DNA from: Cladocopium goreaui | Taxonomy: Eukaryota > Sar > Dinophyceae > Suessiales > Symbiodiniaceae | Assembly (NCBI GenBank): GCA_947184155.2 | Contig: CAMXCT020001509.1 | Location: 12,501 to 76,500, forward strand | Direction of reading: 5' to 3' | DNA length: 64,000 bases | Shown here: positions 2,106 to 57,350 of the stretch, one piece after another | Layout of the letters: each line of letters begins with the position of its first letter | How positions within the stretch are numbered: the stretch's first letter is position 1 | The notes under the pieces: model-generated | Told to the model about the DNA's origin: nothing | What the model saw: only the letters and a program-made list of their open reading frames with translations | Database searches by the model: none | Position numbers and translations under genes: made by a program

Positions 2106-2109
2106 CGTT

Positions 2110-2345
2110 TCTGTTCTTGTCTTGTTTTTCTTCTTCTTCTTCTTTTTCTTCTTCTTTTTCTTCTTCTTCTTCTTCTTGTTCTTCTTCTTCTTCGTCTTCT
2201 TCTTCTTCTTCTCTTTCTTCTTCTTCTTCTTCTTCTTCTTCTTCTTCTTGTTCTTGTTTCTATTGTTCTTCTTGTTCTTCTTGTTCTTCTTGTTGTTCTT
2301 GTTGTTCTTGTTCTTCTTGTTCTTCTTGTTCTTCTTGTTGTTGTG
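2110..2345 (+). repeat. (TTC)n/(TTG)n microsatellite, about 230 bp
   Basis: Uninterrupted TTC with TTG variants. It reads as poly-Phe, poly-Leu or poly-Ser on plus and poly-Lys or poly-Arg on minus. These long frames come from the repeat. Confidence 0.95.
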
Positions 2346-2485
2346 GTCTTTCTGTCCTCCTCCCTTTCCAACCCTGCGATCTTCGAAACTGATCTGCTGA
2401 TCCACCGGAACGCACCAGCACCCAGGGTATCCGCACCCGCGAAGGCCACGGCCCCGGAAAGCACGTGCAAATCCGCTTCAGACAT
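2343..2485 (-). CDS. Candidate N-terminal exon, unknown protein
   Basis: An ATG at 2485 follows an acceptor-like 'AACCCAG' by two bases, as expected for a dinoflagellate 5' end that receives the spliced leader. The frame starts MSEADLHVLSGAVAFAGADT and continues GC-rich to about 2343 (REEDRK). It then runs into the (TTC)n array as poly-Arg. The true exon probably ends at or before the array. No family recognised. Confidence 0.35.
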
Positions 2486-2496
2486 CGCTGGGTTAT

Positions 2497-2513
2497 GTGT
2501 GTATATGTATATA

Positions 2514-2549
<36 letters not shown>

Positions 2550-2559
2550 TGTATGTATG

Positions 2560-2593
<34 letters not shown>

Positions 2594-2715
2594 ATATATG
2601 TAAATAATATATGTATATAGTATATGTATTATATATATATATGTATTATATATATATATATATGTATTATATATATATGTATTATATATATATGTATTAT
2701 ATATATATAAGTATA
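2497..2715. repeat. (GTAT)n and (TATA)n microsatellites
   Basis: About 20 GTAT units are followed by TA-rich blocks with a recurring TATGTATTATATATA. Open frames here are repeat artefacts. Confidence 0.95.
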
Positions 2716-3086
2716 AGGACATGATGGAAATTGATGGAAATTGATGGACATTGATGGAAGATGTACAATCTAGGCCTCTGGGATCTCCACATCCACCCCT
2801 GAGCACAGGCGTTAGTGACCGAATCGACCGAATCGACTGAATTGACCCGGCCACATCACACTGAGATACACTGAGGCTAGTGCCCCTACTGGAAGCCGCC
2901 ATGAAGCTGTACACGGTGGCACTATGTGGCACTTGAAGACTTGGGCCACTTGTGGCACTTGCTTTAAAGCGGGAGTCCGAGTTCTGTGTTGGCGGATGTT
3001 GCTGGTGGCAGTTTGCATTCTTGAAATGTCTTGAAATGTATTGAAATATATTGAATGCAGTTGAATTTCGTCTTGCAAAATCTCAC

Positions 3087-3154
3087 CTGTCGCCCTCAAG
3101 TCGCAACTGTAGCGCTTGCTGCTGGACATTGTCCGTGCATTAGGAGCATCGAAG
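3087..3154 (-). CDS. Candidate internal exon, unknown gene
   Basis: Acceptor 'CTCTGCAG' at the high end, and a donor matching the consensus (GACAG then GTGAGA) at the low end. The frame reads FDAPNARTMSSSKRYSCDLR. Length is 68 bp. Both splice sites and one open frame agree, but the protein is not recognised. Confidence 0.4.
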
Positions 3155-3726
3155 CTGCAGAGCATTCATCGGCAAATGCTGACTTGGTCTAACTTGGTCT
3201 GACTAGCAATCAAGCGGATTTAGTTTGCAAAGCCGATTTAAGCGAAATACATCCGCCAGAGCCGCATGAACTCAACTCGGCAAGGGACCCCTGATTTCAA
3301 GGGCTTGGTCATAGAGGGTTCTGAGAGCCAGGACTGTATTGCGAGAGTCTGTGAAAATGAGCACACTCAAGAGAGCTTGGAGAGCACGGAGAGCACGCAG
3401 CGTAAGTTTGGGATGAATTTGCGTGGCTGCAGGACGCGACGTCACGCGTTTTGCAGTCTGAAACATTGCTGCTGGAGTCGGCAAATGTTGCCGTACTGAA
3501 CTCTCGGAGACTCTGAGAGCTGTCCAGGACTTTTGCAGTTGAACTGGCTTGCTTGCATTTGTTTGCATTGGTTTGCATTTGTTTGCATTTGTTCGTTGGA
3601 ATTTGAGTGGGGCGACACTTCGAATGTAGTAGGGCACAGTTTTCATGTGTTCTCATGGCAGGTGCATTGCTGGGACATGTCTTGGTCCAAATTTCAACAG
3701 GGTCCCCTATATAACTTTCCCCTGAC
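3155..3726. other. Mostly non-coding; short (GTTTGCATTT)n at about 3549-3594
   Basis: A 10-base unit, GTTTGCATTT or a close variant, is repeated about four times near 3550-3594. Short minus-strand frames around 3300-3450 are open but no exon has both splice sites. Confidence 0.5.
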
Positions 3727-17950: not shown

Positions 17951-18011
<61 letters not shown>

Positions 18012-18085
18012 CCACCAGCAACACCACCAGCAACACCACCAGCAACACCACCAGCAACACCACCAGCAACACCACCAGCAACACC

Positions 18086-18117
<32 letters not shown>

Positions 18118-18202
18118 CAACACCAACACCAACAACAACACCAACAACAACACCAACAACAACACCAACAACACCAACACCAACACCAACACCAACAACA
18201 CC

Positions 18203-18234
<32 letters not shown>

Positions 18235-18436
18235 CCACAACCACAACAACAACAACAACAACAACACCAACAACGACAAACAACACCAACACCAACACCA
18301 ACACCAACACCAACAACAACAACAACAACACCAACACCAACAACGACAAACAACACCAACAATAACAACAACAACAACAATAACAACAATAACAACAACA
18401 CCAACAACACCAACAGCGACAAACAACACCAACAAC

Positions 18437-18474
<38 letters not shown>

Positions 18475-18870
18475 CAACAACAACAACAAACAACAACAAA
18501 CAACAACAACCACAACAACAACAACAACAACCACCACAACAACAACAACAAAAACCACAACAACAACAACAGCAACAACAACAACAACCACAACAACCAC
18601 AACAACCACCACAACGACAACAACAACAACGACCAACAACAACGACCAACAACAACGACCAACAACAACAACAACAACGACAACCAAACAAACAAACAAA
18701 CAAACAAACAAACATACATACATACAAACAAACAAACAACAACAACACAGCGGCAGCAGCAGCAGCAGCAACATCAACAGCAACAGCAACAACAACAAAA
18801 ACATGAACAGCAACCACTACCACTACCACAACCACAAAAGGGACCACAACAGGAACCACAACAGGAACCA
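17907..18870 (+). repeat. (CAG/CAA/ACC)n triplet array, about 960 bp
   Basis: CAG at the left, then CAACAC, CAA and ACC blocks, a short (AAAC)n near 18690, and CAG/CAA again. All three plus frames (Gln/Asn/Thr) and three minus frames (Val/Cys/Leu) are open for hundreds of codons. No start or flanking exon supports translation. Confidence 0.95.
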
Positions 18871-23569: not shown

Positions 23570-26420
23570 GCTTTGTCGCAACACTGGGTATCGAGAAACA
23601 AAGGGAAACAAGAAGGAAGACAAGCTGGGAGAGAAAGGAGACAAGGCTTCGGGAAGGTGGACACACCGTTCAACAAAGGGAAACAAGAAGGGAGACAAGC
23701 TCGAAGACAAGCGAGACAAGGCCTTGGGAAGGCGGACACACCATCCAACAAAGGGAAACAAGAAGGAAGACGAGTTGGGAGACAAGATGGGAGAAAAGCC
23801 GGGAGACGAGTGGAGACGACACCTCGGGAAGGCGGACACACCATCCAACAAAGGCACACATGTGGGGAGACAATGGGAGACAAGACCTCGGGAAGGCGGA
23901 CACACCATCCAACAAAGGATAACAAGAAGCGAGACAAGCTAGGATACAAGCTGGAAGACAAGGGTGAAAAAGCCTTGGGAAGGCGGATGCACCATCAAAC
24001 AAAGGGAAACAAAAAGGAAGACAAGCTGGGAGACAAGCTGGAAGAAAAGCTGGGAGACAAGCTGGGAGGCAAGGTGGGAGACAAGCTGGGAGACAAGCTG
24101 GGAGACAAGGGGGACAAGGGAGGGTGGACACACCATCCAACAAAGGGAAACAAGAAGGCAGACAATGGGAGAGAAAGCGAGACAAGACCCCCGGGAAGGC
24201 CGACACACCATCCAACAAAGGGAAACAAAAAGGGAGACAATAGGACCCAATAGGAGACAAGGGGAGACAAGACCTCGGGAAGCCGGACACACCATCCAAC
24301 AAAGGGAAACAAAGCTGGGAGACAAGCTGGGAAAACAAAACGGCGGGACATGGAGAAGCTGGAGACAAGCTGGGAGACAAGCTGGGAGACCGCCTGCAAG
24401 ACAAGCTGGGCGTCGAGCTGGGAGATACGCTGGGAGACAGGCTGGGAAACAAGCTGGGAGAAAAGCTGGGTAACAAGCGGGGAGACAACCGGGCACACCA
24501 TCCAACAAAGGGAAGCAAGAAGGAAGACAAGCTGGGAAACAAGCAAAGCTGGTAGACAAGCTGGGAGACAAGCTGGGAGACAGGGGGACAAGGCCAAAGG
24601 CAGACACACCATCCAACAAAGGGAAGCAAGAAGGGAGACAATGGGAGACACGGGGAGACAAGCTTCGGGAAGACAGACACAGCATCAAACAAACGGAAAC
24701 AAGAAGACAGACAATGCGAGACAAGGGAGACAAGACCTCGGAAAGCCGACACACCATCCAACAAAGGGAGACAAGAAGGGAGACAATGGGAGACAAGGGG
24801 GGGGGCAAGGGGAGACAAGACCTCGGGAAAGCGGACACACCATCCAACAAAGGGAAACAAGAAGGCACAATGGGAGACAGGGCCTCGGGAAGGCGGACAC
24901 ACCATCCAACAAAGGAAACAAGAAGGGAGACAATGGGAGACAAAGCGGGACAAGACCCTCGGGAAGGTGGACACACCACCCAACAAAGGGAAACAAGAAG
25001 GGGTATACAATGGGAGACAAGGGGAGACAAGACCCTTGGGAAGGCCGACAGACCACCCAACAAAGGGAAACAAGCTGGGAGACAAGGGGAGACGAGGCCT
25101 CGGGAAGACGGACACACCATCCAACAAAGGGAAAAAAGAAGGAAGACAAGCTGGGATGTCTGCGGACAAAGGGAGACAAAGCCTCGGGAAGGCGGACACA
25201 CCATCCAACAAAGGGAAACAAGAAGGGGTACAATGGGAGACAAGGGAGACAAGACCCTTGGGAAGGCCGACAGACCACCCAACAACGGGAAGACTGACAC
25301 ACCATCCAACAAAGGGAAACAAGAAGGATTAAGACAAGCTGGGAGAGCTGCGGACAAAGGAAGCAAAGCCTCGGGAAGGCGGACACACCACCCAACAAAG
25401 GGAAACAAGAAGGGGTATGCAATGGGAGACAAGGGGAGACAAGACCCTTGGGAAGGCCGACAGACCACCCAACAAAGGGAAACAAGCTGGGAGACAAGGG
25501 GAGACGAGGCCTTGGGAAGACGGACACACCATCCAACAAAGGGAAACAAGAAGGAAGACAAGCTGGGAGAGCTGCGGACAAAGGGAGACAATGCCTCGGG
25601 AAGGCGGACACACCATCCAACAAAGGGAAACACGAAGGGGTACAATGGGAGACAAGGGGAGACAAGACCCTTGGGAAGGCCGACAGACCACCCAACAAAG
25701 GGAAACAAGCTGGGAGACAAGGGGAGACGAGGCCTCGGGAAGACGGACACACCATCCAACAAAGGGAAACAAGAAGGAAGGCAAGCTGGGAGAGCTGCGG
25801 ACAAAGGGGGACAAAGCCTCGGGAAGACGGACACACCATCCAACAAAGGGAAACAAGAAGGAAGACAAGCTGGGAGAGCTGCGGACAAAGGGAGACAAAG
25901 CCTCGGGAAGGCGGACACACCATCCAACAAAGGGAAACAAGAAGGAAGACAAGCTGGGAGAGCTGCGGACAAAGGGAGACAAAGCCTCGGGAAGGCGGAC
26001 ACACCATCCAACAAAGGGAAACAAGAAGGAAGACAAGCTGGGAGAGCTGCGGACAAAGGGAGACAAAGCCTCGGGAAGGCGGACACACCATCCAACAAAG
26101 GGAAACAAGAAGGAAGACAAGCTGGGAGAGCTGCGGACAAAGGGAGACAAAGCCTCGGGAAGGCGGACACACCATCCAACAAAGGGAAACAAGAAGGAAG
26201 ACAAGCTGGGAGAGCTGCGGACAAAGGGAGACAAAGCCTCGGGAAGGCGGACACACCATCCAACAAAGGGAAACAAGAAGGAAGACAAGCTGGGAGAGCT
26301 GCGGACAAAGGGAGACAAAGCCTCGGGAAGGCGGACACACCATCCAACAAAGGGAAACAAGAAGGGGTACAATGCGAGAGAAAGGGGGACAAGACCCTCG
26401 GGAAGAGGGACACACTATCC
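23570..26420 (+). repeat. GAGACAA-rich minisatellite, array 1 (2.85 kb)
   Basis: Core words are GGAGACAAG, CCTCGGGAAGGCGGACACAC and CATCCAACAAAGGGAAACAA. Unit length varies (about 55-90 bp) in the left half, and copies are degenerate with (GGGAGACAAGCT)n subrepeats near 24030-24110. Frames of up to 828 codons are open on both strands. They come from the repeat (unit often a multiple of three, few T on the plus strand so few stops) and I do not call them genes. Confidence 0.97.
25733..26404 (+). repeat. Near-identical 84-bp units within array 1
   Basis: The word CCTCGGGAAG occurs at 25817, 25901, 25985, 26069, 26153, 26237 and 26321, always 84 bases apart. Several units appear identical. 84 is 28 codons, so each frame repeats one 28-residue peptide. 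There are no unique spacers, so this is not a CRISPR array. Identity this high points to recent expansion or collapse/duplication in assembly. Confidence 0.95.
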
Positions 26421-26479
26421 ACCAACGGTTAGAGGTCTCGTAAACGCGTGCAGACAGGCGTCACCATATATGATATATG

Positions 26480-26775
26480 ATAAACATAATTCCAATGTTT
26501 ACTGACTTGCCTCGATTCTGAATTGAATGTACTCAACATCTATTCAACACCTATCCGACATATAATCCACATAAAATCGACATATAATCCACATAGATTC
26601 AACACATATACTCAACATCTATTCAGCATCTTATCAACATAAATCCGACATATGATCCACATAAATTCAACACCTACACAATGTTGTATTCAACATACAT
26701 ATATTCAACACATAATCAAAATCTATTCAACATAAACTCAACATGTAATCAACATCTGCTCAACACGCCGACAGA
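26480..26775 (+). repeat. 'ATTCAACATCTA'-type irregular repeat
   Basis: Many variants of ATTCAACAC, CTCAACATCTATTC and CGACATATAATCCACATA at irregular 12-17 base spacing. Confidence 0.85.
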
Positions 26776-26864
26776 CGCCATCTGGAAAACAAATAAGAAC
26801 AACTATAAGAAAACGTATCTGCAAACGTAGGAACATCTTCTATCAGAGTAACATCAGACCCATG

Positions 26865-27105
26865 TTCGCGTAGCTTAAGCACATGTGCAAGCGGAGCAAC
26901 ATGTTAAATGCCAAGGAACGTTGTTAGCCCCACCCCACCCCACCTGCGTAGCTTAACCACATGTGCAAGCGTAGCAACATCTTCTATCAACGTAACATCA
27001 GACCCATGTTTGTGCAACATAACCACATGTGCAAGCGTAGCAACATCTTCTTAAATGCCAAGGAACGTTATTAGCCCCACGCCACCCCACCCCAACCCCA
27101 CTAAA
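26865..27105 (+). repeat. Tandem duplication, 'CACATGTGCAAGC' block
   Basis: CCACATGTGCAAGCGTAGCA occurs in full twice and once as a variant, and AAATGCCAAGGAACGTT followed by (CCCCAC)n twice. The order suggests one full and one partial duplication of about 75-130 bp. Confidence 0.85.
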
Positions 27106-27179
27106 CACTGACATACATGGTAAAAAATGCACAAAAACTCGCTGTGCCTATGGAAAGTACGTCCTAAAAAATGAGCATT

Positions 27180-29180
27180 TTCAGGCCGACCAAGCCTCCA
27201 ACAAAGGGAAGCAAGAACAGGCACAATGGGAGACAGGGGGAGACAAGACCTCGGGAAGGCAGACACACCATCCAAGAAAGGGAAACAAGAAGGGAGAAAA
27301 GCTGGGAGACAAGGAGAGAAAAAGCCTCGGGAAGGCGGACACACCATCCAACAAAGGATAACAAGAAGCGAGACAAGCTAGGATACAAGCTGGAAGACAA
27401 GGGTGAAAAAGCCTTGGGAAGGCGGACGCACTATCCAACAAAGGGAAACAAGAAGGGAGACAATGGGAGACAAGGGGAGACAAGACCCTCGTGAAGGCCA
27501 ACACACCATCCAACAAAAGAAACAAGAAGGGGTATAATGGGAGACAAAGGAAGACAAGACCCTCGGGAAGGCGGACACACCATCCAACAAAGGGAAACCA
27601 GAAGGGGTACAATGAGAGACAAAGGGGAGACAAGACCCTCGGAAAGGCTGACACACCATCCAATAAAGGGAAACAAGACGGGGTACAATGGGAGACCAGG
27701 AGAGGCAAGACCCTCGCGAAGGCGGACACACCATCCAACAAAGGGAAACAAGAAGGGGTACAATGGGAATCAAGGGGAGACAAGACCCTTGGGAAGGCCG
27801 ACAGACCACCCAACAACGGGAAACAAGCTGGGAGACAAGGGGAGACGAGGCCTCGGGAAGACGGACACACCATCCAACAAAGGGAAACAAGAAGGATTAA
27901 GACAAGCTGGGAGAGCTGCGGACAAAGGGATACAAAGCCTCGGGAAGGCGGACACACCATCCAACAAAGGGAAACAAGAAGGGATACAATGGGAGACAAA
28001 GGGAGACAAGACCCTCGGGGGAGACAAAGGGAGACAAGACCCTCGGGAAGGCGGACACACCATCCAACAAAGGGAAACCAGAAGGGGTACAATGGGAGAC
28101 AAAGGGAGACAAGACCCTCGGGAAGGCGGACACACCATCCAACAAAGGGAAACAAGAAGGAAGACAAGCTGGGATGTCTGCGGACAAAGGGAGACAAAGC
28201 CTCGGGAAGGCGGACACACCATCCAACAAAGGGAAACAAGAAGGGGTACAATGGGAGACAAGGGAGACAAGACCCTTGGGAAGGCGGACACACCATCCAA
28301 CAAAGGGAAACAAGAAGGGAGACAATGGGAGACAATGGGAGACAAAGGGAGACAAAGGGAGACAAGACCCTCTGGAAGGCGGACAGACCATCCAAGGAAA
28401 GGAAACAAGGGGAGAGAAGGGGAGACAAGACCCTCGGGAAGGCAGACACACCGTCCAACAAAGGAAACAAGAAGGGGTACCCTCGGAAAGGCTGACACAC
28501 CATCCAACAAAGGGACACAAGAAAACGGAGACAAGACCTCGGAAAAGCGGACACACCATCAAACAAAGGGAAACAAGAAGGGGTACAATTGGAGACAACG
28601 GGAGACAAGACCCTCGGGAAGGCGGACACACCATCCAACAAAGGGAAACAAGAAGGGGTACAACGGGAGGGAGACAAGGGGAGACAAGACCCTTGGGAAG
28701 GCGGACAGACCACCCAACGAAAGGAAACAAGGGGAGAGAAGGGGAGACAAGACCCTCGGGAAGGCGGACACACCGTCCAACAAAGGGAAACAAGAAGGGG
28801 TACAATGAGAGACAAAGGGGAGACAAGACCCTCGGAAAGGCCGACACACCATCTAACAAAGGGGATCGACACAAGAAGGGGTATAATGGGAGACAAAGGG
28901 AGACAAGACCCTCGGGAAGGCGGACACACCATCCAACAAAGGGAAACCAGAAGGGGTACAATGAGAGACAAAGGGGAGACAAGACCCTCGGAAAGGCTGA
29001 CACACCATCTAACAAAGGGGACACAAGAAGGGGTATAATGGGAGACAAAGGGAGACAAGACCCTCGGAAAGGCGGACACGCCATCCAACAAAGGGAAACA
29101 AGAAGGGAGACAATGGGAGACAAAGGGAGACAAAGGGAGACAAGACCCTCGGGAAGGCGGACACACCATCCAACACCAAG
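27180..29180 (+). repeat. GAGACAA-rich minisatellite, array 2 (2.0 kb)
   Basis: Same vocabulary as array 1 (CCATCCAACAAAGGGAAACA, GACAAGACCCTCGGGAAGGC, GAAGGGGTACAATGGGAGAC), with units of about 60-85 bp. The segment 27290-27420 nearly repeats 23888-23990, so the arrays share older units. Frames up to 714 codons on minus and 423 on plus are artefacts. Confidence 0.97.
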
Positions 29181-36430: not shown

Positions 36431-37022
36431 TTGTATACATGTATACATATATACGTATATACATATATACATATTTACATATTTACATATATACATATAT
36501 ACATATACATATATATATATTTACATATATACACAAATACATATATACATATATGGTCTCGTGTTCCGTTTTCCTCCCCCCCCCCCAATGGTATGGGTCC
36601 CCACGTAGCACCCCGTTCCCTTCCATTTGCAAGCTATTGGCAGCATTTCTGAGGTCCAGCCTCGTATTTGCTAGGTTTTTGCAGCGATTCTGACTACCAG
36701 CCTCGCATTTACTAGGTACATGCTACCTTTTAGACGACCTACGTAGCACACATACTCCCTCAAAGTACCTACGTGCTACCTATAGTTATATACACAAGTG
36801 CTATGTATCTACTTCATATATATATATATTTATTTATTTATTTATATATTTATGTATGTCTGTATGTGTGTATTTATTTATTATAGGCACATACATCTAT
36901 ATATATATATATTTACATACACATACATTTATTTATATATATACACATATTCATATTTATCTATACATATATATATATACACACACATAGATATATTCAT
37001 ATGCATATATATATACACACAC

Positions 37023-37063
<41 letters not shown>

Positions 37064-37545
37064 TATATATAAATGCAAATAAAAACATATATATATATAT
37101 CGTATACATGTATACATGTATACATGTATACATACATACATACATACATACATACATACATACATACATACATACATACATACATACATGCATGCATGCA
37201 TGCATACATACATACATACATATATATATATTTACACATACATACATACATATATAATTATACATACATATATATATAACCACACCCCCACCACACCACA
37301 GGGGGAGTACTATGGCTGACCCATGACCATGGCGGGGGGGTTGGAACGCTGGACCATATATACATATATACGTATATACATATATACATATACATATACA
37401 CATTTACATATACATAAACATACACACATTTACATATACATAAACATATACATACACGAACACATACACATACATCATATATGATATATATATATATACA
37501 TATACAAATGTACATACATATTTACATATTTTTACATGCATGCAT
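36430..37545 (+). repeat. (ACAT)n / (TATA)n arrays
   Basis: Tetranucleotide ACAT/ATAC tracts (for example 37021-37060, 37130-37230) with interspersed TA. Two C or G runs occur at about 36578 and 37332. Unique sequence at about 36590-36780 has no gene. Confidence 0.95.
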
Positions 37546-38724
37546 ACCATTACAATACAATACAATACATTACATTACACTACATTAAATTACATTACAT
37601 ACCATTACATACCATTACATAGCATTTCATTGCATTACCATACTTTACCTTACATTACCCTACATTACCATACATTACCATACATTACCATACATTAACA
37701 TACATACATGCATAGATGCACACATACATACATACTTACTTACCATACTTACAATACTTAGAAAACTTACAATTCTTACAATACATACAATACATACAAT
37801 ACATACAATACATACAATACATGCAAGACATACAAGACAGACAAGGCATACAAGACACACAAGGCATACAAGACATACAAGACATGCAAGACACACAAGA
37901 CATACAAGACATACAAGACATACAAGACATACAAGACCCACAAGACATACAAGACATACAAGACACTCAAGACATACAAGGCATACAAGACATGCAAGAC
38001 ATGCAAGACATGCAAGACTTACAATACATACAATACATACAATACATACCATACATATAATGCATACAATGCATACAATGCATACAATGCATACAATATA
38101 TACAATACATACAATACATACCATACATACCATACATTCCATACATACCATACATACCATACATACCATTCATACCATGCAGACCATGCAGACCATACAC
38201 ACCAAACACACACACACACACCACACACACCATACATACCATAAATACCATGCATACCATACGTGCCATACATACCATACATACCATACCATACATACCA
38301 GACCATACCATACCATCCATTGCATTACATTAAATTACATTACATTACATTTCATTACATTACATTTCATACATTACATACATTACATTCACTACATACA
38401 TTACATACATTACATACATTACATACATTACATACACTACATGCATTGCATACATACCGTTCTTAACATGCACGTGATACATAACATACATAACATACGT
38501 ACCATACAAACCATACAAACCATACACACATACATACATACATACATACATACATGCATGCATGCATGCATGCATGCATGCATCAATCCATCCATCCATC
38601 CATCCACCCATAAATCATACATACATTACAATACAATACACTACATTACATTGCATTACATTACATTGCAGTACATTACATTACATTACCTTTCCATACA
38701 TACATACATACATACATACATACA

Positions 38725-38760
<36 letters not shown>

Positions 38761-39125
38761 CATACACACAGACAGACAGACATAACATAACATAACAAAA
38801 CATAACATAACATACATGACATAAATACATAACATACATACACAGCATACCATACGTACCATACATACCATACATACCATACATACCATACATACCATAG
38901 CATACCATACATACCATACCATACCATACAATACCATACCATACCATTACATTACATTACATTACACTACATTACATTACATTACATTACATACATACAT
39001 ACATACATTACATACATACATACATACATACATCCATACATCCATCCATCCATCCATCCATACATACATACATACCATATATACCATGCATACATACCAT
39101 GCACACCATACATACCATACATTCC
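37546..39125 (+). repeat. CATAC/ATTAC/CAAGACATA penta- to decanucleotide arrays
   Basis: Successive domains: (ACATT)n, (ACAATACATA)n, (CAAGACATA)n at about 37826-38010, (ATGCATACA)n, (ACCATACAT)n, (CATA)n and (TTACA)n. Most frames on both strands are open (His/Thr/Tyr or Met/Val/Tyr/Cys). This is almost 1.6 kb of pure satellite within the presumed HEAT-gene intron. Confidence 0.97.
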
Positions 39126-45723: not shown

Positions 45724-47198
45724 GTAAAGACTGTAAAAATGCGAGACTGTACTTGGTCACTTCAGAACAGGCAAGCGGCAAGTGTACACATGGATCATCG
45801 GTCTCAAGAAGTACTGCTGAGCATGCATATGAACATTAAATCTGGCCTCTAAAGGCTTGGGCAAGACATCCATGCTCAGGCCCAATGTCAAAGTCGTCCC
45901 AAAACAGTTCAATGAGTTCTGAATCAAAATGAACTGACATGAATCAACACCCATCAACACCCAAAAAAATCAGCAACTCAAAAGCAAGAAATGTTTTCGG
46001 GCGAAAACCCACGGGCTACTCTCTTTGCATTGAAATGGCATCACACTGAATTTGACAAGCTTGAATAGACTCTGCATGCTTTCTACTTTGAGCCATGTCA
46101 TTCCAACGCATTGCGAGACCCAAAATGTCATGCATGTTTGCATTCGGGGCATGCTCCATGTCCTGCAGCGTCTGAGAGGATTTCCTTGAAGGAAAACATC
46201 AAGAAAGGGCTGAAAGATGCTTTAAGGGAGAAAATATCTGCTTTTTAAGACTTGCTGCCGTGTTCCTTTTGTGTCTAGGAAGGATGGACGAGGATGTTAA
46301 GTGCTTTAAGTGCTAGGGCTGCTAGGGCTGCTAGGTAGAATTTGCATGAATTTGCTATGGGCGCAGGCCACAGCACAAGGCATTTGACTCAGACTCTTGA
46401 GGCATCTCTTCGCCAAGACACACGGGCGGCTGTTCGGGGCAATTGCCACCTGGTGGACACGAACGGTATAATTCACACGAGGAATCCAAAGAGAAACTAT
46501 GTAAGGGACTTCTCAATTACAAACCGGAAATGTTTGAAGTATCTTGAAGATCATAAGATCATAAGCACCTTGCCATGAGTCCTGGTATCCCAACCTCGAA
46601 GGAGACAAGCTCACCTGGCACCAACCACGTGCAGCAAGATCAGCTTAGTGGACCCCAGAAAAGTTAGAAGCAGACAATTTGGGCAGTCCAAAAAAGGAAT
46701 CCTAGTCCCTCTCTTCTTTTTCGGCCTCCGGGCTTGCAGGAAGGGAAGACTTAGTTTCCTGCGCGATCCAAAGTCATCTGCAGCACACATCAAGGCTTGC
46801 AGAGTCACGCAAATGTGCAAAAACAAAGGCCAACAAAATTGGAATAAGAATGTGCAGGAAGAAAGAGGATGGACGGCTTACAAGAAATTCCGCTGGGAGA
46901 CAGAACAGGAACCGAGGAATGGTTTCACACACCACAGGCCTCAGCTGCCTCAGCTGACGTGCTTGGAACATCTTGGAACATCTTGGCATGTCTTGACACT
47001 CCAGGCTACATGGCCAAGACAAGGAGACAAGGGGATGTCCTCCGATCGAGGAGACGAGGGTCGCGAAGACATGGGTGAACGTCGCGAATCCACCTTGTCA
47101 CACTTCATCCCTGGTCGCGAATCCCTTGGCATATATGCATCTATGATTCTACAAATAGATATGTATGTAATAGTATATGTATGTATATATATATATAT
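45724..47198. other. No confident gene
   Basis: A plus frame near 46360-46460 (TLEASLRQDTRAAVRGNC) looks HEAT-like but is isolated and on the opposite strand. The plus frame at 46648-47205 has no recognised motif. A (TA)n block lies at 47176-47199. Confidence 0.45.
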
Positions 47199-47431
47199 AC
47201 ATTAGTTGTGAGATGTAAAGCATAGATACTCAAAACGGTTCACCCTATCCAGGCTCACATCCGCATAGCTTTTTCTTCCCAGACTCTTCGTGCGGTCTCA
47301 ACCTGCTCCTCGCAGGATAGTGCTTTGGAACGCTGTGCAGGTAGTCTCCTGCACAGCAGCACTGGTTGGATCCGTACACCCTGTTCCGCACTCCTGTAAA
47401 CTCAGGAGGCTGCACAGGTTGAATCTCTCCC
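47199..47431 (-). repeat. Retroelement 3' direct repeat, distal copy
   Basis: Runs from ACATTAGTTGTGAGATGTAA to GGTTGAATCTCTCCC and is nearly identical to 47665-47896 (a single CGC/CGT change near the end and about two bases of length difference). It ends exactly where the proximal copy meets the RNase H 3' end. Confidence 0.9.
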
Positions 47432-47664
47432 GCCCAGTGCTACAGTCGTGGGACTCCACGTAGAGATCAACATCCTCAATGATGTGATCCCCTACAAGAG
47501 AGGATACTCCACCGGAGTCCTATCTCATAGGGAGGGAAGGGAGGGAAAAGAAAGAACGATGAAGCCAGTTTGGCTCAGACTTGAGCCAAAATGGATTCAT
47601 CAGCTTACATACTCACCCTAATGATAATGCACACCCAGTGCCTGCCAAACACGATGCATACATA
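47432..47664 (-). other. Unique segment between the direct repeats
   Basis: About 230 bp, including a purine tract GGGAGGGAAGGGAGGGAAAA and the spliced-leader relic at 47580-47594. On the minus strand it precedes the distal repeat. It was not found again upstream in the element. Confidence 0.7.
47580..47594 (-). other. Spliced-leader relic (15 nt)
   Basis: The minus strand reads CCATTTTGGCTCAAG, an exact match to the last 15 bases of the conserved 22-nt dinoflagellate spliced leader. The upstream bases (GATGAAT) do not match the leader's CCGTAG. An inverted partial copy (TGAGCCAAACTGGC) follows at once, making a hairpin. By chance a 15-mer match is expected far less than once in this window. 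Confidence 0.7.
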
Positions 47665-47896
47665 CATTAGTTGTGAGATGTAAAGCATAGATACTCAAAA
47701 CGGTTCACCCTATCCAGGCTCACATCCGCATAGCTTTTTCTTCCCAGACTCTTCGTGCGGTCTCAACCTGCTCCTCGCAGGATAGTGCTTTGGAACGCTG
47801 TGCAGGTAGTCTCCTGCACAGCAGCACTGGTTGGATCCGTACACCCTGTTCCGTACTCCTGTAAACTCAGGAGGCTGCACAGGTTGAATCTCTCCC
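47665..47896 (-). repeat. Retroelement 3' direct repeat, proximal copy
   Basis: Same sequence as 47199-47431. On the minus strand it starts 23 bases past the RNase H stop codon (47920-47922), so it is in the 3' untranslated region of the element. Confidence 0.9.
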
Positions 47897-47919
47897 AATG
47901 CACTTCTATCCCAAAGCAC

Positions 47920-48351
47920 TCAGAGAAACTCCACAACCCGGAGAAACGCGGGAAGTGGTAGAGACCAAATCTCGAAGGGGAAAAATGCAAAATGCGTGGT
48001 GAACCCATGGCGTCGATGCCATGTTGCCTGAAGGCCATCTCGGCTGATCTCGTCTGACCAGTTGGCCTTACTAGGGATCCACTCCCAGAAAAACCAAGCT
48101 TTAAGACCAAAAAGGGTAATATGAATCAAACGAGACATATGCTCTAAATCTGCATTGTCAGAACGACCTCGAATCAAAGCCATGAGCGCTGCTGTGTTGT
48201 CGATGAACCAGAGACCTCGTCTGCCCCGAAACATGGACGGCCGCGAAAACAAAGCATAGAGAACCTGCAGCAGCTCTAACTGGGCAATCTTCTTGTCACC
48301 AGGCTCCCATAGGCTGTACACCAATGGAGGAATGAGAGACACAAATGCCCC
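47920..48351 (-). CDS. Retroelement RNase H domain (frame-shifted from RT)
   Basis: Degrades the RNA of RNA-DNA hybrids during retrotransposition. Visible: PPLVYSLWEPGDKKIAQLEL with the catalytic Glu, then GLWFIDNTAALMALIRGRSD with the second catalytic Asp, then EWIPSKANWSDEISRDG with the last Asp. A first catalytic Asp probably lies in the preceding frame (LAASDAALESPGQGTGG). The coding frame shifts at CCCC 48348-48351, so this part is out of frame with the RT in this copy. Stop at 47920-47922. Confidence 0.75.
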   Translation of the reverse strand, partial: GAFVSLIPPLVYSLWEPGDKKIAQLELLQVLYALFSRPSMFRGRRGLWFIDNTAALMALIRGRSDNADLEHMSRLIHITLFGLKAWFFWEWIPSKANWSDEISRDGLQATWHRRHGFTTHFAFFPFEIWSLPLPAFLRVVEFL

Positions 48352-49179
48352 TCGCTGCGGTGATCGTCATGCCACACCACCAGGAAGCCCCCTGTGCCCT
48401 GACCTGGGCTCTCCAATGCAGCGTCAGAAGCAGCAAGGAAACGGAGCCCTGCATGTGGCCAGATCTCAATGTGTCTGGAGGGTCGGGTGGTGATGACGGT
48501 GCGCAAAAAGCTGAAACATTGGCGCAACTCCTCAGTCAACTCTGCGGAGCGCTCCTGCTGTCTGCGCTTGATGGGGGCCAGGCCACCGCAGCCAATGCGC
48601 CCCCACACGCCAAGCTCAAAGAAGTTGGCGATGCCGTAGATCTTGGCAGCCACCCCTGGTTGCAGTTTACTGGAATCCTCAGCAATCTTCATGAGGTGAA
48701 GCAACTTGGTCTCAATGCGCTCACGGGCCCAAAACTGAACTAGGCCCTTCGAATGAACTTGACTGAAATCATGATCAAGGCCCAGGAAGGTGCCGGTACT
48801 CTGCATCTTCTGGCATTTCTCTTCTGAAAACGGAGTACCCAAAAGGTTGTTGAGTGTCTGCATCGCACGTTGACCTGATCCTCTGCAGAATTTGCGGTCT
48901 GTCACATGAGCATCATCAAAATACAAGCTCGTCAAACAAAAGGCAAATCGACGTGATAAAGCCTCCACAAAGCGACTGTATCGATTGAAAGATGTGACTG
49001 CAAGAGGAAGACCAAAAAGCAAACCAGTGTAAATCATAAAAGCTGGTTGTTGCCATTCATGATGGAAGAAAGCCACAATGCAGCACAAAGCCTCATCCCA
49101 ACTCATAGGGCAAAAACGATAGGCATCAGGCCAATCCTCGCCACCTGACTCCCATTCTTCCGCCTCCCAGCTGGGGGGG
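48352..49179 (-). CDS. Retroelement reverse transcriptase, palm and thumb
   Basis: Copies element RNA into DNA. Motif A is in GGEDWPDAYRFCPMSWDE, motif B in YTGLLFGLPLAVTSFNRYSR, and the catalytic motif C is YFDD within CLTSLYFDDAHVTDR. The 'GTFLGLDHDFS' phrase follows as in related RTs, then a connection region and the start of RNase H. It joins the fingers part (next entry) across a seven-C run at 49173-49179, where the two frames differ by one base. The metal-binding Asp residues are intact. Confidence 0.82.
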
Positions 49180-49926
49180 AGGCATAGGCATACTGCAGGT
49201 GCTGAGCCGGCCGCAGCGCTGAGCAAAGGGTGAGCTTGTTCGCGTCACTGGATCGCTCAGATTGCAAGCCGACATAGGCGTCGTCAATCACTCTTTGCTT
49301 CCCAGATGATTGTGTGATGACGCATCGGGGGATCAACCGGTAGGTTTCCGTGCCCAGACAACGATGCAGTTCCTCTGCAGTCATTGGCAAACCACAGAAG
49401 CCCTTCTCGGCATCTTTGAGGCTTTGCTGCAGCAGAAATTCGTCATCGGCGCCTGGCCTCACCCGAGCCAAAATGGTGTTGTTGTGGCTCTGCCAGTCCT
49501 GGAGGACATCGTCCCGTGTCAGACGGGTGGCTGCTTGTTCTGGAAAAATGCCATACGGCGGCGCATAGCCCACTGCTGGAAGCCCCATACACAGGCCTGC
49601 TGGCAGTGTCACATCGCCCCAATTGGCCAAAAGAAGGAGAATTGCTGTGAAACCGACATCTCGTTGCAATGTCGCTGTCCGGATGGCCTCAGTCTGTTTA
49701 CCTCTCAAATGGGCTGTGATCGTGCTCCACCGCCGCTTCATCTCTGATAAGATGCCCATGGATCGCTCTCTCAACCTACGCAGGTCGACTCCTGGCAGGC
49801 TGGAGAAAGATGCGGCAAACCTCAGGTCATCATCCAAAATGGGAAGCCCCTCAGTAGGCAAAGGTTGCATGCTAAGCTGAAGGGCGTTCTCGAAGTGCTG
49901 GCCTGGCTGAAGGTGGAAAGGCAGAA
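49173..49926 (-). CDS. Retroelement reverse transcriptase, N-terminal and fingers part
   Basis: Begins near LSMQPLPTEGLPILDDDLRF, passes GFTAILLLLANWGDVTLPAG and DEFLLQQSLKDAEKGFCGLP, and ends in the fingers motif RLIPRCVITQSSGKQRVIDD, then SSDANKLTLCSALRPAQHL. The 'QRVIDDA' and 'PAQHL' words are diagnostic for this dinoflagellate RT family as I recall it. The frame changes from the methyltransferase ORF somewhere near 49.9 kb; the exact point is not clear. Confidence 0.8.
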
Positions 49927-51479
49927 GAGGGGCTAAAGCCGCTCTGTGGTTGATGGCTCCCACCTGCTGACCTTCTGCTGTCCTCATCTTCTGCCTCATC
50001 GAAGGGGCTGCCAAAACTGGGTTGCTGCTGCCCTCCATGTCCAGCCCCTGCTGGTGGCGCCATCGCACATACAGGTCGAGCGGGTTGGTTCACCAGGTCC
50101 TCCACGAAGGGGATGGCTACACCTTCAAACCATTCTCCTGGGTAGAGCTTCTTGAAAGCTAACGCTAAGGACTCTTGCAGAATGTAGAATGGCCCAAAAG
50201 GGATGCCTGTAGCCTGCGCGACACTCGACAAGAGGACACTTCGGGTAACTCCCTTGTGACTCCTGCCATGCTGTCCTTGGACCACTTGTGGGGCTCCTCG
50301 ATGGCCCTGCGAACTCAAGCGATCAAAAATCAGCCCGGCTAGGAGGTCGGCCTCGCAAGTTTGGGCTGCCGGGCAATCGCAGACTAGCACTGAGCCTTCT
50401 AGCTCATCCAACTCGCACCAGAGTGTCTCCCTGATGTATTGGACATAGTAGGGGACCCAGTCTTGAGGGGTGCAATTCACTCCAACCTGCCATGGAGACT
50501 TCCATTTGGTGGTAGGTAGGCGGTGGGTATGACTCCCCAGCCCCACGTACACATGACCAGGGGGGAGTGCACCCTGTTGCAGGACATCCTCGACACATGC
50601 TCTGGTGGGCACCCTGGCTGCTTCGGCTGTGTCCAAGGGCCTCAACCCCAGGCTGATGGCTAGTGGAGTCATAGCCCACTCGCGAAGTGCTCTGGGATCG
50701 AGATCAAGCCCATGGTCCCGATGGCCAGTGCAGCTCGGTGATGGGGACCTCGGCACATAGAGCTTGGCGTGGCCCACACGCACTGCCCACCACGATGCCG
50801 CCGTGGGGATGGCAAAACATAGCTCTGCTGTGTACTCTGACTCCTCAGTTGAAGGGAAGTGGCGCTTACCATCCTGCACCCAAGGTTCCCATTCCTGTGG
50901 GTCATGAAAGTGGTTGCAATCAGCTCTGGGCCATTGGGCAATCTCAGCAATGTTGTGGCGCAGCCTCTGCAGCTTCGCTCTTGCGCCTCCAAAACAGCAA
51001 GCTGAATACCGCTGATCTGACCAGCGACCGCTCTCCCACATCGCCACCTCATCTGGCGTCCACCAGTGGAGGCTGTTATATGGGTTCTCGCGGACTGATC
51101 CACCACCCCTGTCCACCAGTTGATCAATCTCTGACAGCACAAAACTGGCAGCTGCATTGTCCTGCTCCACCCTGACCAACTGAGACCCTGTTAAGTCAGG
51201 GAGACCCAGCGGGTGTTTCTCAGATCGCAACGGCCGGGGTGGTGGGCGCCCATCACCGAAGTCGCGCGGGATCTCCCTTGCTCTGCTTTTGGTAGAGCAG
51301 CCCAAAGCTGCTGCTATGAAGCACACTGACTGTAACTGCTCATGCAAGGATTGCTGCCTGAGGCCATTGGATAGGTCATGGCTGCTGTCAAGCATCCAAT
51401 CCACTGAGATGGTCTCCCAACCACAAAAGATGAAGGCTTTGGACAAAGGTGTGTTGGGCCCCGCATAAAGGTCCGCCAT
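49872..51479 (-). CDS. Retroelement C5-cytosine-methyltransferase-like + DUF4326-like protein, 535 aa
   Basis: True ATG at 51479. Residues 2-28 (ADLYAGPNTPLSKAFIFCGW) match motif I of C5-DNA methyltransferases ('DLFAG.GG.s.gf..aG'). Residues 56-71 (AALGCSTKSRAREIP) stand where motif IV, with the catalytic Cys, is expected: Cys61 is kept but the usual Pro before it is Gly. ENP at 131-133 matches motif VI 'ENV', and QRLRHN at 171-176 matches motif VIII 'QRR.R'. No target-recognition domain or motifs IX-X were recognised. Residues about 309-388 (HVYVGLGSHTHRLPTTKWKS ... VLVCDCPAAQTCEADLLAGL) look like DUF4326, including its Cys-rich end. The C-terminal 120 residues are Pro/Ser/Gly-rich. C5 methyltransferases have been reported inside retrotransposons of dinoflagellates and a charophyte (de Mendoza and co-workers, 2018); whether this is the same family needs alignment. 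Activity is unproven. Confidence 0.72.
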   Translation of the reverse strand: MADLYAGPNTPLSKAFIFCGWETISVDWMLDSSHDLSNGLRQQSLHEQLQSVCFIAAALGCSTKSRAREIPRDFGDGRPPPRPLRSEKHPLGLPDLTGSQLVRVEQDNAAASFVLSEIDQLVDRGGGSVRENPYNSLHWWTPDEVAMWESGRWSDQRYSACCFGGARAKLQRLRHNIAEIAQWPRADCNHFHDPQEWEPWVQDGKRHFPSTEESEYTAELCFAIPTAASWWAVRVGHAKLYVPRSPSPSCTGHRDHGLDLDPRALREWAMTPLAISLGLRPLDTAEAARVPTRACVEDVLQQGALPPGHVYVGLGSHTHRLPTTKWKSPWQVGVNCTPQDWVPYYVQYIRETLWCELDELEGSVLVCDCPAAQTCEADLLAGLIFDRLSSQGHRGAPQVVQGQHGRSHKGVTRSVLLSSVAQATGIPFGPFYILQESLALAFKKLYPGEWFEGVAIPFVEDLVNQPARPVCAMAPPAGAGHGGQQQPSFGSPFDEAEDEDSRRSAGGSHQPQSGFSPSSAFPPSARPALRERPSA

Positions 51480-51563
51480 CCGTGGCAGCTGACAGTTGAC
51501 TCTGTCTACGGGTCTTGCCTCATCCTGCCCAGCAGAAGTGCCCGCCTCTCCCGCTGGGCCCCG

Positions 51564-52769
51564 TCATGGCAAAATCTTCGCCCGACATTGGCTGGCCCCA
51601 TGCCCCGGCATACCACAAATGCGTTCTCCTCGGACCACGATACCACACTTGTGCTGACCTTGGGGGCAAGAGCTTTTGGGGTTCTTGCATTGTCCATGTT
51701 GGAAGGCTTGACAAATCTTGGAGCCATCTCGCATCACCTTGGCCACCTTCTTGCCGCTCACCGGCTTACCCAAGGCAAACTGGGATGGCGGCTGAGCCGC
51801 TGCCGCTGGCGCTGCTGTGGGCTTGCTCGCCTCAGCCTTGGGCGCTCCGAGCACCGCATGTGGTACCCAATGGGCGTCCCGTGCCACACAGGTCTCTTTA
51901 ATGACCTCTCCCAAGGACTTGGATGATTCCCGAAATTTGGCGACCCAATCGGAGCGATCTTCAAGGTCACGAGCTTCCAGCCAGGCTAGCCTCTGCGACA
52001 ACGGCAACGTACTCGACTGGCGCTTTGCTCTGTAGAAGTATTGCATGACCACATCCAGCGGCACCTCCACGAAGGCGGTCGAGTCGGCGCCAAGGGTCTT
52101 CTCCGCAGAAGCGTCTTTCACACTAGCCCTGGGGGTCACTCCCGCCATGGCGTAGGCAATGAGCAACGTGAGGAGGCGGTCCAGATAGTTCTCCCAATCA
52201 TGAGGGATCCTGTCCTCATCCTCAGCCTCCTCGGTATAGAGCCCCTCTGCCAGCTTGCGCTTCTTCTGAGTTGTGTGGAGCTGGTACTGCAAGGTGCGGA
52301 CCTTCCACAAGTTGTAGACGCACAACATCCTCTTGGACAGCTCCCTGCTGATCCTTGAGAGTGTGGCATCAGCTGGATGGATCTCTGGTGGAAATCTCAT
52401 ACGATACCTGACCCAGAAGTTGGATTTGACATCACGCAACTCCGTATCAGCCAGCATCGTATCCAGGTCGCTGATACTGATCTTGGACCTATCCTGGTCC
52501 TGGTTCTTGTAGTACAAGGTCACTGCAGTCCAAGCTCTGCGCAACCTGGATCCTTGGATCAACCTCTCATCGCCAAGTTGCAACTTGGCCAAGAACGTGT
52601 CGACTTTCGACTCATCTTCGAAGAGGAACCGAAACTCCTCGAGGTTCTGAATCTTGGTAGCCAACAACGCCTTGGTCACAACGGGGTCCAACGAAAAATT
52701 CAGCCCTAGAGACTCCATGGTTTCCTGAATGGTGGTACTCTCCACCGGAACCAATCGAACACTAGTCAT
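51564..52769 (-). CDS. Retroelement Gag-like ORF 2 with Cys/His cluster, 401 aa
   Basis: Best start is ATG 52769 (MTSVRLVPVESTTIQETMES); the frame is open further upstream without support. The middle is helical and charged (for example VRTLQYQLHTTQKKRKLAEG). The last 50 residues carry ICQAFQHGQCKNPKSSCPQG with a C-x7-C-x6-C-x4-H spacing (CCCH-like), then ICGMPGHGASQC with C-x4-H-x4-C, like a retroviral-type zinc knuckle with the first Cys nine residues earlier. Such modules bind nucleic acid. The stop at 51564-51566 separates it from the methyltransferase ORF by 84 bases; in intact relatives the two may be one polyprotein. Confidence 0.68.
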   Translation of the reverse strand: MTSVRLVPVESTTIQETMESLGLNFSLDPVVTKALLATKIQNLEEFRFLFEDESKVDTFLAKLQLGDERLIQGSRLRRAWTAVTLYYKNQDQDRSKISISDLDTMLADTELRDVKSNFWVRYRMRFPPEIHPADATLSRISRELSKRMLCVYNLWKVRTLQYQLHTTQKKRKLAEGLYTEEAEDEDRIPHDWENYLDRLLTLLIAYAMAGVTPRASVKDASAEKTLGADSTAFVEVPLDVVMQYFYRAKRQSSTLPLSQRLAWLEARDLEDRSDWVAKFRESSKSLGEVIKETCVARDAHWVPHAVLGAPKAEASKPTAAPAAAAQPPSQFALGKPVSGKKVAKVMRDGSKICQAFQHGQCKNPKSSCPQGQHKCGIVVRGERICGMPGHGASQCRAKILP

Positions 52770-53211
52770 TTTCTCAAGGTAACTCCTTGTATGACTTGAA
52801 CATTCAAAGCTGCTCACCCCCAAACATGCCTCCCGCATGCTGCACATCACCTGCCATCCAGGGACAGAAGGAGGTGACAGGGGGGGTAAGACAAGAACTC
52901 CCCTGTTCCTCAGGGGTAAGACAGACTGCAATCCTAGTCCATATCCCCGGTGCACATCATGTAGCTTGTACTCACAGATACCTGTGTAAGCCACCTCATG
53001 ACATACCGGTCAGACTAACTAGCATAGCCTGTCATGACCTCATCCTCCCGGATGTTAAAAAGGGCTATTTTCCACGCAGAAGTCAAACTCTCAAATGGTT
53101 CAGATGCATGTTGGCCTACGGGCAAGCTATGGACCACGTTGATCAGCCTACCAAAATCGGCCCTGTGCTTCTCTTATTCAAATGAATTCTGGTGCGCCAC
53201 TACTGACATGG

Positions 53212-53742
53212 TCAGCGTGGATGCCAGCTCGCTGCTGCTCGCACCAAACAACCATCACAAAAAGCGCGGCCCCAAGCCATAGCCTCCCTCATGTCCTGCG
53301 TCGTCATCGGTTTCACCAAGCGGATTGCACGCTCGGCTGATTGCTTGTGGGAGCAGAGGGTCTGGCCGTTGTTGAGCTCCAGGTGGACCTTAGAACGAAG
53401 TGTCGCAATGTAGCCGCAGGGCTCTGGGAACGGGTTCCTGAGGGAGCTGGTCCTGATAGTCGTGTCTATACTCTTCATGGATGATTCCCGGAATGTCCAA
53501 CGAGCGCCTGCAGCTCTTGACATAGGCCACTGCAACATCCCAGCTCTCCTGGGCTTCCCGGCACTCGGCTCTTTGGGGGGCTCCGGGGACAACTGCAGAG
53601 GGGCTATCAATGGGCTAGCCTCGACATTGGCATCGCACTCAAACCTCCGACCAGAAATCCCAGTAGGACTGCGAGTCCCCCTGTGCAGACATAGAAGAAT
53701 TCCTGGCAAGAGGTGAGGCGCGCTAGTCGGGCAAGAAGGCAA
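53212..53742 (-). CDS. Retroelement spacer ORF, 176 codons, unknown
   Basis: Open frame between the two Gag-like ORFs, with no proven start. Contains SPLIAPLQLSPEPPKEPSAG, SKVHLELNNGQTLCSHKQSA and LVKPMTTQDMREAMAWGRAF. Some phrases look real, others low-grade. It could be the decayed C-terminus of ORF 1. Confidence 0.35.
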   Translation of the reverse strand: MPSCPTSAPHLLPGILLCLHRGTRSPTGISGRRFECDANVEASPLIAPLQLSPEPPKEPSAGKPRRAGMLQWPMSRAAGARWTFRESSMKSIDTTIRTSSLRNPFPEPCGYIATLRSKVHLELNNGQTLCSHKQSAERAIRLVKPMTTQDMREAMAWGRAFCDGCLVRAAASWHPR

Positions 53743-56189: not shown

Positions 56190-56749
56190 GCTGAGGGCTT
56201 TGGACCTTCAGAGCACGTCATGAAACTCTGGAGTTTCAGCAGCAAAGTAGAAGCACAAGGAAACACTGTCGATGGTTCTGGCTGATCGCAAAAATCAAAT
56301 CGATCTACATCTCCTGCCTTTAGAGGCTGGAGATGGGGATTTTGAAAAGCAGGCTGGACCATGACTCACAGCTTCCTGCAAGCTCTGACAGGCTTCAGGA
56401 TGCTTCAGATAGAAATCCAAAGAGAAACAAGAGAAACCTGCCATTCAAGACAGTTCAAGACTGACTTGAGGATCTCTGTGATCGGACAAGATCTCTGTGA
56501 TTACGGCTTCAATGGCTCGCCTTCAGAAAATTTGCTCGGCTTATTGTTCGGCCCTGCAAAGTTGCTCGTTCTCCTGGCAAGACATGCAGGGACCGACCAG
56601 CACCTGAGGCTTGGAAATTGGTTCCCGCTTAGCAGGGACAGTCTGCACACTAGGCAAAAAGATCAAAATAAGCTTCGGTGGTATCCCCAACAGCCGCAAC
56701 GTCTTATTTTTACAAATCTTTCTGAAGCGTGCTGCGAAGCCAAGCACTG

Positions 56750-57350
56750 GAACCTTCTCCGGAACCCTGTTGAACCTGACCTGGCTCTGCACCAAAGCCT
56801 CCCAGACCTTCTCCGCAACCTTCTCTGGAACCCTGTTGAACCTGACCTGGCTCTGCACCAAAGACTCCCAGACCTTCACCGGAACTTTCTCCGGAACCCT
56901 GTTGAACCTGACCTGGCTCTGCACCAAAGCCTCCCCAACCTTCTCCGGAAACTTCTCCGGACCCCTGTTGAACCTGACCTGGCTCTGCTCCCCGACCTTC
57001 TCCGGAAACTTCTCCGGAACCCTGATGAACCTGACTTGGCTTTGCACCAAGGCTTCCTGGAACCTTCTCCGGAACCTTCTCCAGACCTTCTCCGGAACCC
57101 TGTTGAACCTGACTTGGCTTTGCACCAAGGCTTCCTGGAACCTTCTCCAGAATCTCCGAAACCCTGTTGAACCTGACCTGGTACTGCACCAAAGCCTTCC
57201 AGACCTTCTTCGGAACCTTCTCGGAAACCCTGTTGAACCTGACCTGGCTCTGTACCAAAGCCTCCCAGACCTTCTCCGGAACCTTCGGAACCTTCTCTGG
57301 AACTGCCCCACCGCCTGCACCAGTGCACACCGGAGCTTTTCTGGGCTGAA
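56750..57350 (+). repeat. 66-bp minisatellite, about nine copies
   Basis: Core CCCTGTTGAACCTGACCTGG occurs at 56765, 56831, 56897 and 56963 (66 apart), then at 57-66 base steps to 57232. The unit also has CCAGACCTTCTCCGGAACC. 66 is 22 codons, so plus frames repeat NPVEPDLALHQSLPDLLRNL and minus frames repeat FGAEPGQVQQGSGE-type peptides. Open frames on both strands are by-products. Confidence 0.95.

Follow-up and report, generated by a model that had tools for sequence, protein, structure and literature searches.

The window analysed here is a stretch of 64,000 nucleotides from the dinoflagellate Cladocopium goreaui (assembly GCA_947184155.2, contig CAMXCT020001509.1, positions 12,501 to 76,500), and it carries a copy of a multi-copy, probably DIRS-like dinoflagellate retroelement whose pol frame opens with a C5-methyltransferase-like (MTase) domain fused to a DUF4326 domain. 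An earlier inspection of the nucleotide letters (hereafter the sequence-only reading) had pointed to an ATG-started open reading frame (ORF) bearing both domains directly upstream of a reverse transcriptase (RT). This ORF of 535 residues (49872-51479) is present on the minus strand, with the quoted peptides in the announced order, and the fusion is supported by a predicted C5 fold with conserved Cys and Glu and by a DUF4326 score above the curated cut-off; a plus-strand reading of the same span is ruled out by stops. RT does lie downstream, but not as a separate gene: in intact copies, such as L049, it belongs to the same pol frame. The features of the window copy are listed below in the direction of transcription.

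Features of the window copy

47185..53555, minus strand: block common to the window copy and L049 (89.5% DNA identity over 6.4 kb to L049 2914-9307)
51567..53009, minus strand: gag-like open frame with CCCH/zinc-knuckle-like Cys-His motifs at its end (alignable to the N-terminal parts of P0016 and P0225)
51564..51566, minus strand: TGA in frame between gag and pol with CGG after it; candidate for a programmed readthrough stop
51527..51559, minus strand: 12-bp hairpin starting 4 nt 3' of the TGA (arms 51559-51548 and 51538-51527; energy and pairing tests)
49872..51479, minus strand: reported 535-residue ORF with MTase-like domain, linker, DUF4326 and frame-shifted tail
50775..51479, minus strand: C5-methyltransferase-like domain, residues 1-235 (predicted fold, profile comparison)
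51297..51299, minus strand: Cys61, counterpart of the C5 catalytic Cys (aligned with the Cys of Dcm PCQ and phage PPC)
51081..51089, minus strand: ENP, residues 131-133, motif VI equivalent (aligned with phage ENP)
50904..50918, minus strand: C-x-H-x-H, residues 188-192, at the place of the C5 target-recognition domain (residue conservation)
50625..50774, minus strand: conserved linker, residues 236-285 (lowest substitution ratio of six regions)
50307..50624, minus strand: DUF4326 domain, residues 286-391 (PF14216, phrog_464, model)
49172..50086, minus strand: pol region between DUF4326 and RT, in another frame in the window copy (unbroken in P0040 and P0183)
48327..49226, minus strand: reverse transcriptase with YFDDAH (RVT_1 27.6 bits, just below the cut-off of 29.6)
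47923..48366, minus strand: RNase H-like region up to the pol stop (corresponds in alignment to the ends of P0040 and P0183)
47193..47896, minus strand: immediately 3' of the pol stop, a pair of 239-bp copies (99% alike, spaced by 465 bp)

The block shared with L049 sets a lower bound for the extent of the element. The gag-like frame has the same strand and frame as the 535-residue ORF, from which one TGA (51566-51564) separates it; it gave no Pfam match at E<=1, and its C-terminal Cys-His motifs are presumably zinc motifs of the CCCH or zinc-knuckle-like kind. The RNase H-like region, also without a Pfam match at E<=1, is assumed by us to be of the DIRS type. Breaks of the frame near 50085, 49175 and 48360 reflect decay of the window copy.

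The methyltransferase domain

The N-terminal part of the ORF is predicted to adopt the Rossmann-type C5-methyltransferase fold that the sequence-only reading had proposed, with HhaI and Dnmt3 high in the ranking of structural matches. Profile comparison with hhalign points the same way, the MTase profile scoring 36.7 and 35.3 against C5 enzymes, above all shuffles tried (maxima 21.9 and 17.3). PF00145 gave no match to the ORF at E<=10 and matched 0/33, 0/6 and 0/10 proteins in further sets; the ORF was likewise without a match in NCBIfam, and in the PDB when searched by sequence with either a single-sequence or a profile query. Of the two profile matches suggested beforehand, that to DUF4326 was obtained, but that to PF00145 was not.

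By the usual motif names and HhaI residue assignments, the catalytic Cys of motif IV (Cys61) and Glu of motif VI (Glu131) are both kept. QRLRHN, put forward as motif VIII, is present, but the equivalent of motif VIII is the preceding GARxKxQ (residues 165-171). The canonical F-x-G-x-G of motif I and Q-x-R-x-R of motif VIII are replaced by AGPN and RxKx(Q/T), respectively. Between motifs VIII and X, the usual target-recognition domain (TRD), which the structural alignment to HhaI passes over, gives way to about 33 residues with a C-x-H-x-H (C-N-H-F-H in the window) before a motif-X-like helix; that these residues bind zinc would be a guess. We regard the domain as a compact member of the C5 superfamily lacking the usual TRD and bearing a conserved C-x-H-x-H instead, as part of an explanation, developed below, that as a whole we hold with a confidence somewhat above even.

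The DUF4326 domain

The DUF4326-like block noticed earlier matches PF14216 at 26.0 bits (curated cut-off 25; residues 305-381) and phrog_464 at 27.6 bits. PF14216 also matches 30 of 33 aligned members at E<=1, the intact relative P0183 scoring 22.9 bits, under the cut-off. The model has a predicted local distance difference test (pLDDT) score of 91.5, and its viral structural matches include Pandoravirus, Solumvirus and phage members; against the PDB, no confident family appeared among the matches listed. The usual DUF4326 loop is CHGD, and that of the relatives is mostly CEAD (E in 47/54, H in 4/54). DUF4326 has been assigned to the rhodanese-phosphatase superfamily (PMC9503650), and its fusions to Macro, SLOG, NADAR, and restriction-modification (R-M) or replication parts are described in phages and giant viruses (PMC9503650, PMC7824862). 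The scanned element proteins have none of Macro, SLOG and NADAR among their listed domains.

Conservation among relatives

Conservation was counted over aligned residues in 242 matched stretches from 230 proteins, out of 299 (298 database proteins and the ORF), whose records, where an organism is named, come from Symbiodinium or Polarella. Cys61 is kept in 185/190 stretches and Glu131 in 188/192, along with D27 (171/174), D35 (174/178), K169 (173/185), C188 (172/172), H190 (152/169) and H192 (162/169), the median majority frequency being 0.72 over 234 columns. Position 60, a Gly in the window, is Asp in 166/190. Cys61 is also present in 34/34 own-genome copies (high-scoring ones), as the sequence-only reading would have it, and none of the outcomes that this reading had named against itself (no profile match to either family, a fold other than a Rossmann methyltransferase, or a Cys61 and motifs that vary among copies) was obtained. 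The RT signature YFDD is similarly kept (Y 111/111, F 111/111, D 110/111, D 111/111).

Of the 299 proteins, 71 have the pol region adjoining RT, preceded by over 350 residues; 67 of these 71 contain the MTase and 66 contain DUF4326. Among 28 full-length pols, the mean difference is 0.435 for the MTase, 0.459 for RT and 0.551 for DUF4326; MTase and RT distances are correlated (r 0.64; 0/999 permutations as high), so that the module has travelled with RT. All five tested MTase residues are kept in 26 of these 28 pols and the DUF4326 set in 22.

The MTase family also appears in other settings. In P0081, P0141, P0153 and P0179, which represent another retroelement group, it seemingly sits inside the RNase H domain (read by eye), after the first Asp strand (TDASPTG) and a Cys-rich finger; the upstream part of RNase H was seen in 4/230 MTase-domain proteins and the downstream part in one (P0081). 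A further group (P0083, P0131, P0136 and similar) shows CGTASKARE or CGTASRARE, and in P0083 the MTase domain precedes RT with Arg replacing Cys; Pfam DUF4326 found no match in P0083, P0131, P0152 and P0154. A scan of viral contigs for MTase-domain relatives yielded 6 pattern matches, of which 0 were confirmed, and a phage tblastn search gave no match for P0131 and weak matches only for P0123 (best E 7e-3).

Copies in the genome and selection

A search of the 1.17-Gb genome (6202 contigs) returned at least 85 matched rows at at least 81 places, a lower bound because 81 of 3060 candidates were scored. An open frame of at least 1213 residues is found in 40/85 rows, two of these with a stop counted inside the match, and a further search revealed subfamilies whose identity to the window ORF falls as low as 38-39%. 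We read 34 distinct copies, namely the best-scoring ones and four from two other subfamilies (L040 and L049 being one copy). Ratios of nonsynonymous to synonymous substitution rates (dN/dS) were computed for the 25 with at least 960 open codons, eight copies being dropped for shorter open frames and L038 for having no stop before pol; selecting open copies favours low dN, equally in all regions.

Among 21 close copies of group A (210 pairs), dN/dS is 0.028 for the MTase (dN 0.008, dS 0.295), 0.003 for the linker, 0.056 for DUF4326, 0.052 for RT, 0.069 for the region before RT and 0.116 for residues 392-465. Against subfamily B, the values are 0.018 for the MTase, 0.055 for DUF4326 and 0.042 for RT, but here dS is close to saturation or has reached it, and for 6, 40 and 32 of the 42 pairs, respectively, it is undefined. 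Since its dN/dS lies below that of RT, the MTase is constrained at least as strictly as RT in the copies compared.

The gag-pol junction

Of the distinct own-genome copies, 32/34 have a TGA in the common frame, 24 or 28 codons 5' of the MTase start; it reads TGACGG in 30 and TGACAC in the two copies of the 55%-identity subfamily. The exceptions are L021, with a different stop, and L038, with none. Among six further loci, five, which belong to a fourth subfamily (38-39% identity), likewise have gag closed by a TGA in frame, with GAG next to it and the MTase 50 codons further on; L055 has no stop at the expected place. A single in-frame stop is therefore conserved between gag and pol, and the window TGA is a family trait; its interpretation as decay was dropped, since the TGA is kept across copies. 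Some plant viruses are known to have a UGA with CGG next to it as a readthrough context.

A hairpin of up to 12 bp begins about 4-5 nt 3' of the stop in subfamilies A, B and C; such a hairpin was not seen in subfamily D. Compared with dinucleotide shuffles, 40-nt energies give z of -3.28, -1.96 and -3.06 for A, B and C (1, 17 and 3 of 500 shuffles as low), the window hairpin itself having z -3.28. Over five distinct sequences, 95% of cells are paired, versus 43-60% when the pairing is slid. Covariation is modest, with two pairs changed on both sides (17/500 shuffles reach the score and 113/500 the count of doubly changed pairs), and the coding nature of the segment restricts how freely it can vary. 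An Rfam search of the window gave no match. L038 (C322 261149-265543), which lacks the gag/pol stop, has an open frame of 2364 residues.

Proposed function and alternatives

The explanation that we favour, and consider somewhat probable, is that the element expresses Gag, then, past a UGA with a stimulating hairpin, a Pol made of C5-methyltransferase, DUF4326, RT and RNase H, and methylates itself in cis. Occasional readthrough of the UGA would let a small number of Gag-Pol molecules enter the Gag particle, where the MTase, delivered in cis, would methylate cytosines of the new cDNA or RNA of the element, with Cys61 as the putative nucleophile and Glu131 activating the base. The lack of a recognition domain and the residence in pol suggest such cis action on the element's nucleic acid, and delivery in cis would therefore demand little sequence specificity. 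DUF4326, a predicted rhodanese-phosphatase-type enzyme, may act in the same complex on a phosphate or ADP-ribose of a nucleic acid or nucleotide. The analysis establishes the anatomy, the homology, the predicted fold, the copy number, purifying selection and the conservation of the UGA and hairpin; what we infer concerns catalysis, substrate, particle context, readthrough and any role of DUF4326, the last being the least certain point. Weighing against this explanation are the degenerate motifs I and VIII, the loss of catalytic residues in 2/28 full-length pols and in P0225, and the fact that CpG depletion, looked for as a scar of self-methylation, was not clear (one N-rich window tile excluded). 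A more daring version, which we hold as doubtful, would make MTase-DUF4326 a two-enzyme modification module, in which the TRD-less MTase would attack cytosine in the element's cDNA or RNA and a second step by the rhodanese-phosphatase-like DUF4326 on the same nucleic acid or its nucleotide cofactor would produce a non-standard mark shielding the element from host defence or dinoflagellate silencing, UGA readthrough supplying the few copies per particle.

A chance resemblance of motifs is ruled out, to near certainty, by the DUF4326 score, the structural matches, the profile scores relative to shuffles, the residue conservation and the own-genome copies. Rather unlikely, in our view, is that the TRD-poor fold methylates RNA (that of the element or a primer) and not DNA, as Dnmt2 does tRNA: Dnmt2 is among the structural matches listed, the HhaI alignment skips the TRD region and the Gag and RT context would put RNA at hand, but HhaI and Dnmt3 rank high, Dnmt2 is not among the 50 matches listed in the second comparison, and known retrotransposon DNA methyltransferases (DNMTs) act on DNA (PMC5890265). 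That the fold has been repurposed to a structural or nucleic-acid-binding role within the particle, without methylation, would accord with the degenerate motifs, the zinc-like C-x-H-x-H and the losses of catalytic residues just mentioned; the conservation of Cys61 and Glu131 and the low dN/dS of the MTase speak against it, and we deem it improbable. As far as the sequences tell, kept catalytic residues and strong purifying selection would favour an active enzyme over such a fold.

The viral connections of DUF4326 raise the prospect of counter-defence, in which DUF4326 would remove ADP-ribose-type or nucleotide signals of the host while the MTase hides the cDNA from a restriction-like defence. 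The fusions described in phages and giant viruses (PMC9503650, PMC7824862) and the viral DUF4326 proteins among the structural matches are compatible with this role, which we nevertheless find unlikely, none of the Macro, SLOG or NADAR partners being listed here and part of the Cys set being absent in 6/28 pols. Finally, the element could be one of the already described SymbioLINE-Dnmt or SymbioDIRS-Dnmt3 elements, with which it shares the host group, an MTase in pol and an RT poorly matched by Pfam, as the authors report for DIRS (PMC5890265). This is very improbable: those elements were found with PF00145, which gives no match here, and the sections on their architecture that were consulted, compared by description only, contain no DUF4326 (PMC5890265).

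Comparison with known systems

SymbioDIRS-Dnmt3 and SymbioLINE-Dnmt are retrotransposons with a cytosine methyltransferase (de Mendoza et al. 2018, PMC5890265), and CG methylation by two SymbioDIRS DNMTs was shown in yeast (PMC5890265). The present family has in common with them a dinoflagellate retroelement setting, a cytosine MTase adjoining RT and purifying selection. It differs in being PF00145-negative and TRD-poor, whereas theirs are detectable with PF00145 (Dnmt3-type or orphan), and, going by the descriptions, in the fusion of the MTase to DUF4326 and its N-terminal place in pol, behind the gag UGA (PMC5890265). DIRS elements with a Dam-type N6-adenine methyltransferase (PMC5890265, PMC6338049) also combine a methyltransferase with RT and RNase H, but here the fold is C5 with a Cys in motif IV, there is no DPPY-type motif, and no tyrosine recombinase was found near the window copy.

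Outside retroelements, there is a likeness to the short C5 methylases of phages (Lactococcus phage P087 gp15 and relatives), which are the third-ranked viral structural match and resemble the MTase in size (about 210 residues in P087), in having ENP, not ENV, and in a K-x-T-like motif VIII. Profile-profile alignment with them covers 164-169 columns and places Cys on Cys and ENP on ENP, but they are free-standing proteins with about 19% identity to the MTase. M.HhaI, Dcm, Dnmt3 and Dnmt1 share the fold, the order of motifs I to VIII and X and the active-site Cys and Glu, and differ in having a TRD and canonical motifs I and VIII. With the DUF4326 proteins known from giant viruses and phages, the element shares the PF14216 match and the structural matches, whereas the loop here is mostly CEAD and the partner is a methyltransferase in a retroelement.

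In titles and abstract starts of the open-licence literature on DUF4326 and retroelement methyltransferases, we found no description of an MTase-DUF4326 fusion. Retrotransposon C5 methyltransferases are already known, and the DUF4326-fused, PF00145-negative lineage, whose MTase escapes Pfam, extends the short list of retroelements described as encoding a cytosine methyltransferase. The dinoflagellate DNMT survey began from PF00145 (PMC5890265), and the family may therefore have been overlooked in methylome work. Through the fusion, a domain seen chiefly in viral conflict systems is also linked to a retroelement. That the MTase is so strictly conserved gives a testable argument for self-modification in the life cycle of the element, and the conserved UGA and hairpin offer a direct test of gag-pol expression.

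Element ends and other features of the window

The 239-bp pair (window 47193-47431 and 47658-47896) recurs in L049 (8596-8834 and 9061-9299), and this direct duplication is part of the 3' end of the element. Where split direct or inverted terminal repeats would mark a DIRS element, only this duplication was seen, and none of the nine open stretches scanned about the window copy, itself decayed, matches tyrosine recombinase (PF00589). In L049, an open frame of 1080 codons lies 5' of the shared block (1-3241) and continues into the element; it contains HCLSGRHR, which resembles HCx5R, the signature of dual-specificity phosphatases. The window copy is possibly 5'-truncated; alternatively, L049 could be nested.

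Elsewhere in the window, a 66-bp tandem repeat of about eight copies (56749-57286) is open in frames on both strands. Long tandem arrays occupy 24957-29133 (units of 75-480 bp with a strong A over T skew), 36963-39122 (ATAC-like) and 17965-18837 (CAA).
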